DNA of 64,000 nucleotides, from positions 80,832 through 144,831 of the forward strand of contig NZ_JAHYSG010000016.1 of assembly GCF_022095675.1 (NCBI RefSeq). The letters are read 5' to 3'. This document shows, in pieces, positions 21,133-23,846 of the stretch. The first letter of the stretch is position 1, and the number at the start of each line of letters is the position of its first letter. Source of the stretch: Dactylosporangium sp. AC04546. Lineage in GTDB: Bacteria; Actinomycetota; Actinomycetes; Mycobacteriales; Micromonosporaceae. The translations under genes and the position numbers were made by a program. The notes under the pieces were generated by a model. The model was not told where the DNA came from. It searched no databases and saw only the letters and a program-made list of their open reading frames with translations.

Positions 21133-21645
21133 TCACAGCTCGCGGTAGATGTCCCGGGCGTAGTCGGCGACGGCCGCCCGGGTCACCGTGGCCTCGATCG
21201 GCAGCACCTCCAGGCAGCGGCGCAGCGCCTCGGTCAGGATCGGCCGGGGCACCCGCATCGAGACGGTGCAGTGCGGCACCCACTCGCCGGGGTTGTAGAG
21301 CGGCAGGCTCGCGATGCCCGCGTCGGCCAGCCGCTGCCACACCAGCGCCTGGTGGCGCATGAGCTCGGGTGTCGGCGCCAGCCCGAGGAACACGACCCGC
21401 CCGACGAAGACGCCGGCGAACTGGAAGTTCAGCCGCAGCGGCGCGGCGACGTCCACGCCGGCCAGCGCCGCGGCCACCGCGGCGGGGTCCAGGGCGCGCG
21501 CCGCGACGAGGGACACGTGCGGGCGGTGCTTGCCGTCGTGCGGCGTGCGCAGCGTCTGCACGCCCAGGTCCTCCAGCAGGTCCCAGAGCACGCGGATCCG
21601 CCGGGTCGACCGCTCGTCGAGGTGCAGCTCGATGGAGGCGACCAC
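21133..21645 (-). CDS. 2'-5' RNA ligase/phosphodiesterase family protein
   Basis: A 170-aa protein of the 2H phosphoesterase superfamily, with two catalytic H-x-S/T motifs: HVSLVAAR (about residue 43) and HCTVSMRV (about 126). Such proteins act on 2'-5' or cyclic phosphates in RNA; the physiological role is usually unknown. The GTG at 21645 follows the Fpg stop by 1 nt, so the two genes form an operon. Convergent with the flavoprotein gene, 3 bp apart. Confidence 0.85.
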   Translation of the reverse strand: MVASIELHLDERSTRRIRVLWDLLEDLGVQTLRTPHDGKHRPHVSLVAARALDPAAVAAALAGVDVAAPLRLNFQFAGVFVGRVVFLGLAPTPELMRHQALVWQRLADAGIASLPLYNPGEWVPHCTVSMRVPRPILTEALRRCLEVLPIEATVTRAAVADYARDIYREL

Positions 21646-21646
21646 G

Positions 21647-22459
21647 TCACGGCTCCCGCTGGCAGAGCGGGCACCAGTACGCGTTGCGCGCGGTGAGCAC
21701 CGCCGTGCGCACCGGCGTGCCGCAGACCAGGCAGGGCTGCCCGGTGCGGCGGTACACGTACACCTCGCCGCCGTGCCGGTCGACCCGGGGCGCGCGGCCC
21801 ATCGCCTCCGGCGTGTGCGCACTGTGGACCGTGTCGATCCGCCCGTCGGCCACGCCGCTGCGCATCAGCGTGCGCAGGTCTGCCCAGATGGCCTGCCACT
21901 GCCCGTACCGCAGCCGCTTCCCGGTCGTCGTGGGCGGCAGCCCGGCCCGGAAGAGTGCCTCCGTCACGTAGATGAGGCCCGCGCCGGCCACAATGGACTG
22001 GTCCATGAGCAGCCCCATGAGCGTGCGCCCCGACCCGCGGATGCGCGCGAACGCGGTGTCCCCGTCGTCGTCCGCGGCCAGCGGATCCGGGCCGAGCCGA
22101 GCGTGCAGCGCGTCGACCTCGCCCGGGTCGAGCAGCTCGCAGGCGGTCGGGCCGCGCAGGTCGAGCCAGTGGTCGGCGTTGACCATCCGCAGCCGGATCT
22201 CGCCGACCTCGGCCGGCGCCGGCCCGTCGCCGTCGGTGAACTTGCCGTAGAGCCCGAGGTGGATGTGCAGCGTGTCGCCGCCCGAGTAGTGGTGCAGCAG
22301 GTGCTTGCCGTGCGCCTCGGTGGCCTCGAGCACCCGCCCGTCGAGCCGCTGCGCACCGGCCGCGAACCGGCCCTGCGGGCTGCTGACCTCGACCGGGCGC
22401 CCGCCGAACAGCTTCCGGTGGCGCTCGGCGAGGCGGTGGATGGTGTGACCTTCGGGCAC
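21647..22459 (-). CDS. Fpg/Nei-family DNA glycosylase
   Basis: A base-excision repair glycosylase/AP lyase of 270 aa. The N-terminal Pro-Glu (PEGHTIHRLA) provides the catalytic proline. The helix-2-turn-helix region contains GLIYVTEALFRAGLPP. A C-terminal zinc finger CLVCGTPV...YWCPLC has C-x2-C spacing on both sides. PEGHT rather than PELPEVE points to the Nei2-like actinobacterial branch that removes oxidised bases. GTG 22459 is 6 nt from a perfect TATAAA box (minus strand, 22471-22466). It is divergent from the Thr leader of the tRNA-synthetase gene. Confidence 0.93.
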   Translation of the reverse strand: MPEGHTIHRLAERHRKLFGGRPVEVSSPQGRFAAGAQRLDGRVLEATEAHGKHLLHHYSGGDTLHIHLGLYGKFTDGDGPAPAEVGEIRLRMVNADHWLDLRGPTACELLDPGEVDALHARLGPDPLAADDDGDTAFARIRGSGRTLMGLLMDQSIVAGAGLIYVTEALFRAGLPPTTTGKRLRYGQWQAIWADLRTLMRSGVADGRIDTVHSAHTPEAMGRAPRVDRHGGEVYVYRRTGQPCLVCGTPVRTAVLTARNAYWCPLCQREP

Positions 22460-22465
22460 CGACCG

Positions 22466-22503
22466 TTTATACCCTCCGCCTCCGCACGGCGGCGCGCTAT
22501 TCT
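22466..22503. promoter_or_regulatory. Divergent leaderless promoters for Fpg and the Thr leader
   Basis: TATAAA on the minus strand (22471-22466) lies 6 nt from the Fpg GTG. TATTCT on the plus strand (22498-22503) lies 6 nt from the leader-peptide GTG at 22510. Neither has an obvious -35. The spacing predicts that both transcripts begin at the start codon. Confidence 0.6.
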
Positions 22504-22509
22504 CGTGGC

Positions 22510-22563
22510 GTGAGTCGCAGCGCACTGTCCACGACGACGCCGGGCCTTCCCCGGCGGCGCTGA
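22510..22563 (+). CDS. Threonine-rich leader peptide (candidate attenuator ORF)
   Basis: A 17-codon ORF, MSRSALSTTTPGLPRRR then TGA, with three consecutive ACG threonine codons at 22531-22539. The GTG start is exactly 6 nt from a TATTCT box, so translation should begin at the mRNA 5' end. Eighteen nt after its stop a 10-bp GC-rich hairpin with a T-run begins (22581-22611), followed by a threonyl-tRNA synthetase gene. This is the classic layout of ribosome-mediated attenuation: stalling at Thr codons when charged tRNA-Thr is scarce would prevent the terminator. The peptide is inferred, not proven. Confidence 0.65.
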   Translation: MSRSALSTTTPGLPRRR

Positions 22564-22580
22564 CGCGACGTTTTTCTCGC

Positions 22581-22611
22581 AAGCTCCGGGGCCGCGCTCC
22601 CGGAGCTTTTT
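22581..22611 (+). terminator. Attenuator hairpin before the ThrRS-like gene
   Basis: AAGCTCCGGG (22581-22590) pairs with CCCGGAGCTT (22599-22608) around an 8-nt loop and runs into five T residues (22607-22611). CCCCGG at 22549-22554, inside the leader ORF, can pair with CCGGGG at 22586-22591 in the left arm, giving a possible antiterminator. Confidence 0.7.
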
Positions 22612-22655
22612 CTGTGCCCGCGGTCGCGGCTCCTCCCGTCCAGAAGGAGTCAGTC

Positions 22656-23846
22656 GTGCAGGACCACCGCAAGCTCGGCCGTGAGCTCGAGCTCTTCCAC
22701 TCCGACCCGCTCGTCGGCGCCGGGCTGCCGCTGTGGCTGCCCGACGGTGCCGCCGCCCGGCGCGCGGTCGAGGACTACGTGTACGCGCTGGAGAGACGCG
22801 CCGGCTACCAGCATGTGTACTCGCCGCCGATGGCCAAGGTGGAGATGTACCACCGCTCCGGCCACCTCCCGCACTTCGCCGACGACATGTTCCCGCCGAT
22901 GGCGCTGGGGGAGCACGACCAGTTCGTGCTGCGGCCGAGCCTCTGCCCGCACCACGCGGCGGTGTTCAACGCCCGCGGCCGCTCCTACCGCGAGCTTCCG
23001 CTGCGCATCGGCGAGATCGGCGGCATGTACCGCGCCGAGCGCTCGGGTGTGCTGGGCGGGCTGTCCCGGGTGCGGGCGATCACCCTCAACGACGGGCACG
23101 TGTTCTGCGCCGAGGAGCAGGTGTTCTCGGAGGTCGTCGCCGCGCTCGCGCTGATGAGGGTGGTGCACGCGGCCCTGGGCTTCGAGCCCGCGTACTTCCG
23201 GCTCTCACTGCGCGGCGACTCGGACAAGTTCGTCGACGACCCGGCGATGTGGTCGAAGGCGACCGAGGTGCTGCGCGAGGCGCTCGCCGCGGTCGGCCTG
23301 CCCTACGTGGAGGCGCCGGGCGAGGCCGCCTTCTACGGCCCGAAGATCGACGTGCAGCTCGTCGACCACGCCGGCCGGGAGGGCACCCTGGCGACCGTCC
23401 AGGTCGACTACTTCCAGCCGACCCGCTTCGACCTGTCCTATGTGGACGAGCACGGCGAGCGGCGCCGCCCGGCCATGGTCCACCGCAGCGCCGCGGGCAG
23501 CATGGAGCGGCTCTTCGCCCACCTCATCGAGGTGCACGAGGGTGCGTTCCCAGCCTGGTTCGCTCCCGTGCAGCTGGCGATCCTCCCGGTCGGCGAGGCG
23601 TCGGCGCGGGCGTTCGCGGCCCGGTGCCGCTCCCTCGATCTGCGGATTCAGGAGTTGTACAGCGGGAGCCTCGGCGCCCGCATCCGAGCCGCACGAAAGG
23701 TCCCGTTCGTGGCCGTGATCGGTGCGCAGGAGCTCGCCGACGGCACCGTCTCGCTGCGCTCACGGGGCTCGGAGGAGGTGCGGGTGCTCCCGGTCGAGGA
23801 GGCCCTGTCGTTCCTGGCGGCGCGGTGCCGAGCGCCGCTGGACTAA
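22656..23846 (+). CDS. Short threonyl-tRNA synthetase paralogue (no TGS/editing domains)
   Basis: Class II synthetase of 396 aa that contains only the ThrRS catalytic core (about 1-300) and anticodon-binding domain (about 305-390). The N-terminal TGS and editing domains of the usual 640-690-aa enzyme are absent. The zinc ligands that select threonine are kept: Cys97 in SLCPHH, His148 in NDGHVFC, His276 in MVHRS, at nearly E. coli spacing. Motif 2 is altered (GGMYRAE instead of the usual CHRNE-type). Start GTG 22656 has AGAAGGAG 6 nt upstream. It presumably charges tRNA-Thr, and the upstream Thr leader supports that. Without editing it could mischarge serine. A stress-induced or inhibitor-resistant backup enzyme is inference. 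Confidence 0.88.
   Translation: MQDHRKLGRELELFHSDPLVGAGLPLWLPDGAAARRAVEDYVYALERRAGYQHVYSPPMAKVEMYHRSGHLPHFADDMFPPMALGEHDQFVLRPSLCPHHAAVFNARGRSYRELPLRIGEIGGMYRAERSGVLGGLSRVRAITLNDGHVFCAEEQVFSEVVAALALMRVVHAALGFEPAYFRLSLRGDSDKFVDDPAMWSKATEVLREALAAVGLPYVEAPGEAAFYGPKIDVQLVDHAGREGTLATVQVDYFQPTRFDLSYVDEHGERRRPAMVHRSAAGSMERLFAHLIEVHEGAFPAWFAPVQLAILPVGEASARAFAARCRSLDLRIQELYSGSLGARIRAARKVPFVAVIGAQELADGTVSLRSRGSEEVRVLPVEEALSFLAARCRAPLD

Follow-up and report, generated by a model that had tools for sequence, protein, structure and literature searches.

What calls up the second, editing-less threonyl-tRNA synthetase (ThrRS) of Dactylosporangium sp. AC04546, and when would a cell turn to it? The gene, here called thrS2, lies in a 64,000-nucleotide stretch of this genome (the window, to whose numbering all coordinates refer; features lie on the forward strand unless stated) at 22656..23846. 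It encodes 396 amino acids, with six Thr codons, all ACC, and its best named relative, from D. sucinum, shares 91% protein identity. We think it probable that the locus holds an emergency ThrRS (ThrS2) behind a ribosome-mediated attenuator, induced when a Thr isoacceptor is left uncharged. Comparison among relatives indicates that a conserved regulatory device in front of the extra ThrRS is real and strongly suggests that it senses charged tRNA-Thr; we infer ribosome stalling, the direction of switching, the physiological trigger and the activity of the enzyme.

A sequence-only reading of this DNA had described a -10 box six nucleotides before a 17-codon open reading frame (ORF) with three consecutive Thr codons, then a 10-bp hairpin with a T-run, a ribosome-binding site and a 396-residue ThrRS, and we recovered all of these in the same order and at the same positions. 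The -10 box TATTCT occupies 22498..22503, and the leader peptide ORF VSRSALSTTTPGLPRRR (22510..22563), which has homologous leaders in relatives, begins with a GTG six nucleotides 3' of it; the transcript probably begins at or beside this GTG and would thus be leaderless. The regulatory codons ACG ACG ACG (ACGACGACG), recognised from the sequence and from relatives' leaders, stand at 22531..22539, and a GGAG lies six nucleotides 5' of the ThrRS start GTG at 22656. No other ORF of 8-40 codons on either strand of the window combines a TANNNT 5-9 nucleotides upstream with Thr-Thr-Thr. The pattern ACGACGACGCCGGN{2,9}CCGGC has a single match in the 13-Mb genome, at this leader, and zero to six matches in each of 40 other genomes, partly at unrelated places. 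Across the window no Rfam family reached its gathering score, and the T-box model was unmatched.

Is the leader conserved with the gene? Of 121 genomes sampled from the window's family, at least 78 carry the short ThrRS gene (77 matches of at least 370 bits, plus G022), and each of the 78 has two matches, the short copy and a longer one. The gene also occurs in 74 of 150 Streptomyces genomes; an even sample of the phylum gave 11 of 346 genomes at E<=1e-106, including the window's own genome and the full-length relative L102. One Streptomyces genome (G477, contigs C200 and C316) has two short copies, 57% and 55% identical to the query. From the family 77 leaders were retrieved, G089 being left out with a match that starts about 100 nucleotides from a contig end. 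Within 400 nucleotides upstream, an ORF with at least three Thr codons and a -10 box was found at 162 of 169 Actinomycetota loci, which include some species twice, and five further loci retain two of the run's Thr codons (L038 TSTP, L042 NTTP, L105 PTTP, L109 TTPP, L173 TTAP). L171, from a Streptomyces-group genome (G504), retains the second hairpin and ribosome-site region with no recognised Thr leader ORF, and is a natural leader loss. L102 stands outside the short clade and has, by eye, editing-domain sequence upstream. Leader ORFs were picked by their Thr run, and presence was therefore judged by an equal scan of canonical thrS genes: none of 20 had a Thr-run ORF preceded by a -10 box and one had any Thr-run ORF, two of the 20 having less than 400 nucleotides upstream (37 and 163). 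In a non-redundant set of 87 loci, drawn from 138 and compiled before 29 later Streptomyces loci, TANNNT precedes the leader start by 6-8 nucleotides in all 87, the leaders having been picked partly by TANNNT, and the aligned leaders commonly share ACGACGACG followed by CCGG..CCGG, with few exceptions. The leader is conserved, as this comparison argues, and not a product of chance.

The codons used by sensor and enzyme differ sharply. The Thr runs of 166 leaders (without L038, L102 and L171, which were not called) contain 461 ACG, 36 ACC and 1 ACT codons (93% ACG). By contrast, 165 short ThrRS genes hold 11 ACG among 1033 Thr codons (1.1%), and 156 of the 165 have none at all, against 85 of 345 (24.6%) in the corresponding part of 20 canonical thrS genes. 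These gene counts exclude L102, canonical and Myxococcota loci, and then 3 of 168 genes shorter than 350 codons. For the other NCG codons, the short genes lie just 8-11 points under the canonical level (GCG 41 vs 49%, CCG 71 vs 81%, TCG 48 vs 58%). Around 50 of the loci, none of 211 long flanking ORFs (at least 220 residues, unannotated, picked by G+C at codon positions) lacks ACG, which makes up 30.5% of their Thr codons, whereas 24 of the 27 short ThrRS genes that have five or more Thr at these loci contain no ACG; a binomial figure for the absence of ACG (log10 p of about -32) ignores kinship and is not a usable probability. The genome's tRNA-Thr genes carry the anticodons CGU, GGU and UGU (82 tRNA matches, part of them read with ARAGORN), so ACG and ACC can each be read mainly by a different tRNA. 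We therefore read the leader as sensing the ACG reader and the gene as cleared of ACG; a thrS2 that avoids ACG, and most threonine, would be translatable when the ACG-reading tRNA is uncharged. Three contigs of this assembly, C53, C71 and C131 (L303, L302 and L304), carry dense arrays of 10, 11 and 6 tRNA genes, one array with its own tRNA-Thr CGU and GGU; these could represent a mobile or accessory tRNA island, or else belong to the estimated 11.5% of contamination in the assembly.

What would the leader act upon? In the window an outer stem, CAGCGC (22518-22523) with GCGCTG (22557-22562), encloses the Thr codons (22518..22562), and relatives have comparable pairs of varying sequence (by eye, uncounted). 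Inside it, immediately 3' of the Thr codons, the inner leader hairpin CGCCGGG/CCCGGCG (segments 1:2, 22538..22556) appears in the fold of the free leader and corresponds to the conserved CCGG..CCGG. A second hairpin (3:4), AAGCTCCGGG/CCCGGAGCTT, of 10 bp at 22581-22608, continues into TTTTTCT (22607-22613), and the whole (22581..22613) is, from its sequence, a probable intrinsic terminator. An alternative helix, GGGGCCGCG (22588..22596) with CGCGGCTCC (22625..22633), would exclude the second hairpin; it is suggested by covariation in relatives, and in the window itself the complementarity has p 0.035 against shuffles. Finally, CTCCT (22630-22634) and AGGAG (22645-22649) form a candidate Shine-Dalgarno sequestor (22630..22649) with a counterpart helix in relatives.

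We then examined how far these structures extend to leaders ending in PAR or similar (Streptomyces, Nonomuraea, Jiangella and some others), 49 in number, 46 of which entered alignment A1 once the near-copies L065, L168 and L155 were dropped. Three helices can be drawn on A1, the middle one being the alternative helix, which excludes both the second hairpin and the sequestor. Pairing in the second hairpin (columns 21-33/38-50) covers 95.6% of cells, with slid controls at 29.0-63.7%. The alternative helix, formed between columns 30-38 (5' arm and loop of the second hairpin) and a stretch farther downstream (66-74), is paired in 97.6% (slid controls 36.5-51.3%) and has changes on both sides in five of nine pairs, in 30 cells; none of 500 shuffles equalled it in paired cells, in both-side pairs, in the number of such cells or in covariation score, and its further pair types were reached in 50 of 500. 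The sequestor (63-70/95-103), between the downstream stretch and the Shine-Dalgarno region, is paired in 86.9%, with slid controls at 39.6-74.2%. The 46 relatives thus present mutually exclusive structures 3' of the leader ORF, the sequestor being the weak member. Outside A1, a complement to the hairpin loop was found downstream at p<0.05 in 20 of 71 testable non-redundant loci, the window among them, and at p<0.2 in 37, where 3.6 and 14 are expected by chance. When a covariance model built from A1 was run on 61 Streptomyces genomes, its 30 best matches (E<=6e-9) all lay just upstream of thrS2, one in each of the 30 genomes that the gene search shows to carry thrS2 (the second copy of G477 was not among them; 9 of the 30 had served to build the model), so the switch seems dedicated to thrS2 in Streptomyces. 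Other tools were less informative: RNAalifold returned no structure for the whole first module, which we would guess reflects length variation, and duplex z-score tests were weak (means -1.0 and -0.9), the hairpin being mis-picked in several Nonomuraea.

The attenuator terminator proposed in the sequence-only reading is probable for the window and does not generalise. No A1 row has a T-run of five or more after the hairpin, the longest being four (L099 and L180), and at least five T in the eight nucleotides after the hairpin occur in 6 of the 87 non-redundant loci (L001, L067, L006, L013, L115, L139), three of them Dactylosporangium-type; at least four T occur in 23. Another hairpin scan gave 9 of 87 with at least four U, but it often chose other hairpins. 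Termination as a family-wide output was rejected on the six-locus count. In Streptomyces- and Nonomuraea-type leaders, where the structures reach the Shine-Dalgarno sequence and no five-T run follows, the output looks translational; on alignment evidence, access of the ribosome to the start is its likely form in the A1 relatives. The window, with its T-run as well, may use both termination and sequestration. The alignment of homologous leaders that had been suggested as a check accordingly bore out the conserved Thr runs and hairpins, while its covarying structures lead to the Shine-Dalgarno region in place of a general terminator. The WblC/WhiB7-like promoter element, the scarcity of ACG in the gene and the Myxococcota counterpart go beyond what the sequence-only reading had noticed.

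A parallel arrangement exists in another phylum. Two of the protein-search matches were myxobacteria; 193 genomes around one of them yielded 30 loci, including the one in that genome (L059), and with L062 from Nannocystis we read 31 Myxococcota loci in total. All 31 have a short leader ORF with 6-10 Thr codons, typically VSFVITTTTTGTTTRFGG..., these leaders having been selected by their Thr run and the equal scan of canonical genes having covered Actinomycetota only. No TANNNT was found 4-10 nucleotides before the leader at any of the 31. The short ThrRS that follows (about 400 residues; an in-frame stop shortens the gene at L237) has three Thr in 28 genes, four in two and seven in one, or 0.8% Thr against 5.2% in two canonical genes; Thr is its most depleted residue (ratio 0.15; next Asn, 0.42), and 30 of the 31 genes use a single kind of Thr codon, ACG in some and ACC in others. 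Nannocystis shows the actinobacterial codon pairing in mirror image, with only ACC and ACT in the leader and only ACG in the gene (7 of 7); this is weak evidence by itself, because the flanking genes are ACG-rich (69 ACG and 42 ACC among 120 Thr codons). A tree of 59 ThrRS places the short copies of Actinobacteria (29 rows, 100/98) and those of myxobacteria (12 rows, 100/100) in distinct clades, set apart by longer enzymes and a 100/100 branch. Unless the leader was already present in a full-length ancestor, the design arose two or more times.

How might the device work? The leaderless mRNA would start at the leader ORF, where a ribosome has to read ACG-ACG-ACG. With ample charged tRNA-Thr the ribosome would pass and the second hairpin would form, leading to termination (in the window), to a Shine-Dalgarno sequence locked by the downstream sequestor, or to both. 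If the ACG-reading tRNA were uncharged, a stalled ribosome would mask the 5' arms of the first hairpin and the outer stem, and their freed 3' arms would compete with the second hairpin. The stall should thereby disfavour that hairpin and let the alternative helix form; in this open state the second hairpin's 5' arm and loop would bind the sequestor strand, leaving the ribosome site accessible. A WblC/WhiB7-type promoter element, discussed below, would arm the switch under translation stress in many relatives.

Several results weigh against this account or parts of it. Both-side pair changes in the second hairpin were matched in 71 of 500 shuffles. The statistics of the sequestor are weak: its covariation score was matched in 8 of 500 shuffles, its both-side changes in 261 and its further pair types in 496, and one slid version reached 74.2% paired. 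Outside A1 the alternative helix passes p<0.05 in just the 20 of 71 loci. The competition by the first hairpin's 3' arm, through pairing with the second hairpin, is suggested by a near-invariant CCGG, which offers no covariation. In equilibrium folds of the 46 leaders with the ribosome's position masked, the mean probability of the second hairpin was 0.91 free, 0.80 with the ribosome on the stop codon and 0.90 at the stall, and that of the alternative helix 0.00, 0.07 and 0.00; for three of the eight leaders shown, all Nonomuraea, the helix appeared once the ribosome occupied the stop codon, which in this model is a rival direction of control. Since equilibrium folding yields no switch, the switch must be kinetic or its direction wrong; as in other attenuators, co-transcriptional timing may decide. 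As for the enzyme, the short ThrRS genes average 1.5% Thr against 4.4% in canonical thrS, and none of the 211 flanking ORFs is as low, but Lys and Asn are depleted as much as Thr in the actinobacterial paralogue. Its low Thr content may thus be partly compositional; only the missing ACG is specific, and we do not use low Thr as proof in Actinomycetota. In the 30 Myxococcota loci other than Nannocystis, leaders mix ACC and ACG and stand before genes of both the ACC and the ACG type, so isoacceptor-specific sensing is not clean there.

What arms the promoter? Across the 87 non-redundant loci, A/T makes up 48-89% at positions -32 to -28, counted from the -10 box, and 8-31% at the remaining positions of -44 to -1, apart from -23 (57%). 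Scored as for WblC/WhiB7 (GAAAWY 3 nucleotides upstream of the -35, spacer 16-19), GAAAWY with the right spacing is present in 22 of 87 loci and the AAA core in 40, against 0-2 and 0-4 at six shifted positions; 28 further Streptomyces loci gave 10 and 20. The window has no exact GAAAWY at this position. It carries instead the AT-rich element GTTTATACC (22465..22473), about 30 nucleotides upstream of the -10 box, where many relatives have the WblC-like AAA; by eye, the same element on the other strand is the probable -10 of a divergent nei/fpg-like gene. With such an element in many relatives, the switch is probably armed by translation stress. The thrS2 of S. coelicolor is likely SCO3778. According to the available part of PMC7157823, thrS2 is among the WblC-activated genes of S. 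coelicolor, and the WblC/WhiB7 element given there matches ours in place and sequence.

This raises an alternative that we consider unlikely, namely that thrS2 is mainly a WblC/WhiB7 antibiotic-stress target whose leader senses a general slowing of ribosomes, like the upstream ORFs of stress regulators. The promoter counts and the S. coelicolor report fit it. A general stall sensor, however, requires no Thr run, which is among the most conserved features of the leader, and the ACG-poor gene and the Thr leaders of Myxococcota speak against it too. Returning to an emergency ThrRS behind a Thr-sensing leader, we also put forward, tentatively and as close to an even bet, a wider proposal: that two phyla independently evolved a starvation-proof ThrRS, without editing, nearly free of Thr and, in Actinomycetota, of the sensed codon, and gated through a Thr leader by one isoacceptor, with an actinobacterial gate in which a covarying three-way RNA switch, armed by WblC/WhiB7, chiefly controls ribosome binding, and with mirrored codons in Nannocystis.

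Is ThrS2 built to charge tRNA-Thr? Pfam recognises only tRNA-synt_2b and HGTP_anticodon in it, and the NCBIfam thrS cut-off is exceeded by a match that begins at profile position 171; the protein starts at the catalytic domain and lacks the N-terminal editing domain usual in bacteria. Its Cys97, His148 and His276 align with the Zn ligands Cys334, His385 and His511 of E. coli ThrRS (named in a figure legend of PMC11252418). Of 169 relatives, 168, 168 and 167 share these residues and the others have gaps there; the equivalents of Tyr462, Gly463 and Gln484 are retained in all ungapped rows. With a class II core, an anticodon domain and Cys/His/His Zn ligands, ThrS2 classes as a ThrRS, and the earlier description of a protein that keeps these three residues and lacks TGS and editing domains agrees with the profiles and alignments. 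Beside the Zn Cys (window residues 95-96), Ser or Ala in 163 of 169 relatives followed by Leu in 147 replaces the Met-Asn of 20 of 20 canonical enzymes. A full-length thrS, whose existence elsewhere in the genome the sequence-only reading had asked after, is present on a separate contig (C59; 658 bits, profile 1-562). Its product is 43% identical to ThrS2 over the ThrS2 region; Pfam detects the editing-associated tRNA_SAD in it and does not report TGS. Lacking an editing domain, ThrS2 would allow serine mischarging, unless its active site or the full-length partner corrects this.

The same alignments bear on whether ThrS2 protects the cell from ThrRS inhibitors such as borrelidin and obafluorin, its leader reporting inhibition of the main ThrRS, a role also floated in the sequence-only reading. 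Inhibition of the main enzyme would leave tRNA-Thr uncharged, and a self-resistance ThrRS copy, ObaO, does exist (in the available part of PMC11252418). Yet all 167 ungapped rows have Gly at the position of Gly463, so that the ObaO-type replacement is absent, and this role now looks quite unlikely. Gln254, at the position of E. coli Leu489, was considered as a resistance residue and rejected, as Gln is found there in 15 of 20 canonical thrS as well. We judge it very unlikely that ThrS2 serves a pathway other than translational Thr-tRNA, its leader tuning it to Thr supply: proteins resembling aminoacyl-tRNA synthetases (aaRS) have other known roles (PMC9437257, in the part available), and the missing editing domain and the altered motif beside the Zn ligand are in keeping with this, but the Zn ligands, the other checked catalytic positions and the anticodon-binding domain are all present. 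That an ordinary intrinsic terminator merely follows a chance short ORF is hardly credible even in GC-rich DNA, rich in hairpins and short ORFs and with the leader pattern at unrelated places in some relatives, given conservation and the shuffle, slid, flank and window controls, and its ORF part is already refuted.

The intergenic region is flanked on the other side by a divergent gene for an Fpg/Nei-like DNA glycosylase (named by eye; 21647-22459, minus strand). Its GTG start lies about six nucleotides from a TATAAA on its own strand, in the 22465-22473 region, and it is, from this arrangement, probably also leaderless, sharing the intergenic region with thrS2. Two genes from thrS2, an ORF at 21133-21822 (minus strand) resembles a 2H phosphoesterase/2'-5' RNA ligase in its C-terminal part, again by eye.

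How does the locus compare with known systems? Bacillus subtilis thrZ is likewise a second ThrRS, induced when the first is insufficient; unlike thrS2, it is under T-box control and encodes a full-length enzyme. That biosynthetic enzymes use little of their own cognate amino acid is a known principle. Selective charging of tRNA isoacceptors, reportedly set out by Elf et al. in 2003, extends to codons, in that controlled genes should avoid the starvation-sensitive leader codon; here that avoidance is near complete across the clade. The theory, as cited in the available part of PMC1183508, holds that leaders use the codon whose reading responds most strongly to starvation, and the leader codon choice here fits it. 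If our reading is true, the locus gives selective charging an almost complete natural example, the sensor codon having been purged from the enzyme under its control, and isoacceptor-specific starvation sensing becomes testable through synonymous changes alone. It also suggests a purpose for the short ThrRS copies that are widespread in Streptomyces, Micromonospora and myxobacteria, and raises the question of why an enzyme without editing of serine mischarging should be accepted just when threonine is scarce. Anabaena offers a partial likeness in the available part of PMC4787780: its second ThrRS, T2, edits poorly and is used under stress, with correction of mischarging by the partner proposed for the T1/T2 pair; T2 differs from ThrS2 in being linked to zinc shortage and in retaining its editing domain, and a leader peptide is not mentioned in that part.

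Leader-peptide control of actinobacterial aaRS genes itself has precedent, as in the Streptomyces leuS and trpS attenuators described by Seliverstov et al. (2005), who found no conserved structures upstream of threonine operons (PMC1262725, in the part available). The closest precedent is the leaderless Thr leader thrL, MKRVRPFLETTPGFVPAR, before thrS of S. lividans (SLIV_19412/SLIV_19410), published in 2021 (PMC8079986), with the same VPAR ending as the Streptomyces leaders here; from this leader SLIV_19410 would be the short paralogue. As reported in the available text, thrL has two Thr, one hairpin and no U-rich sequence, termination being "not clear", and that text mentions neither a short paralogue nor conservation, alternative helices, codon bias or Myxococcota. 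Nor did a search covering part of the literature turn up a description of the switch and its conservation, the scarcity of ACG in the gene or the similar arrangement in myxobacteria. The classical E. coli thr operon attenuator, in the available part of PMC1183508, also places Thr codons in a leader peptide that governs attenuation; it uses eight ACC codons to control a biosynthetic operon, whereas here ACG codons stand before a synthetase, and the output in relatives looks like sequestration of the ribosome site. The device is a variant of leader-peptide attenuation, and its most surprising part is the paired choice of codons in sensor and enzyme.

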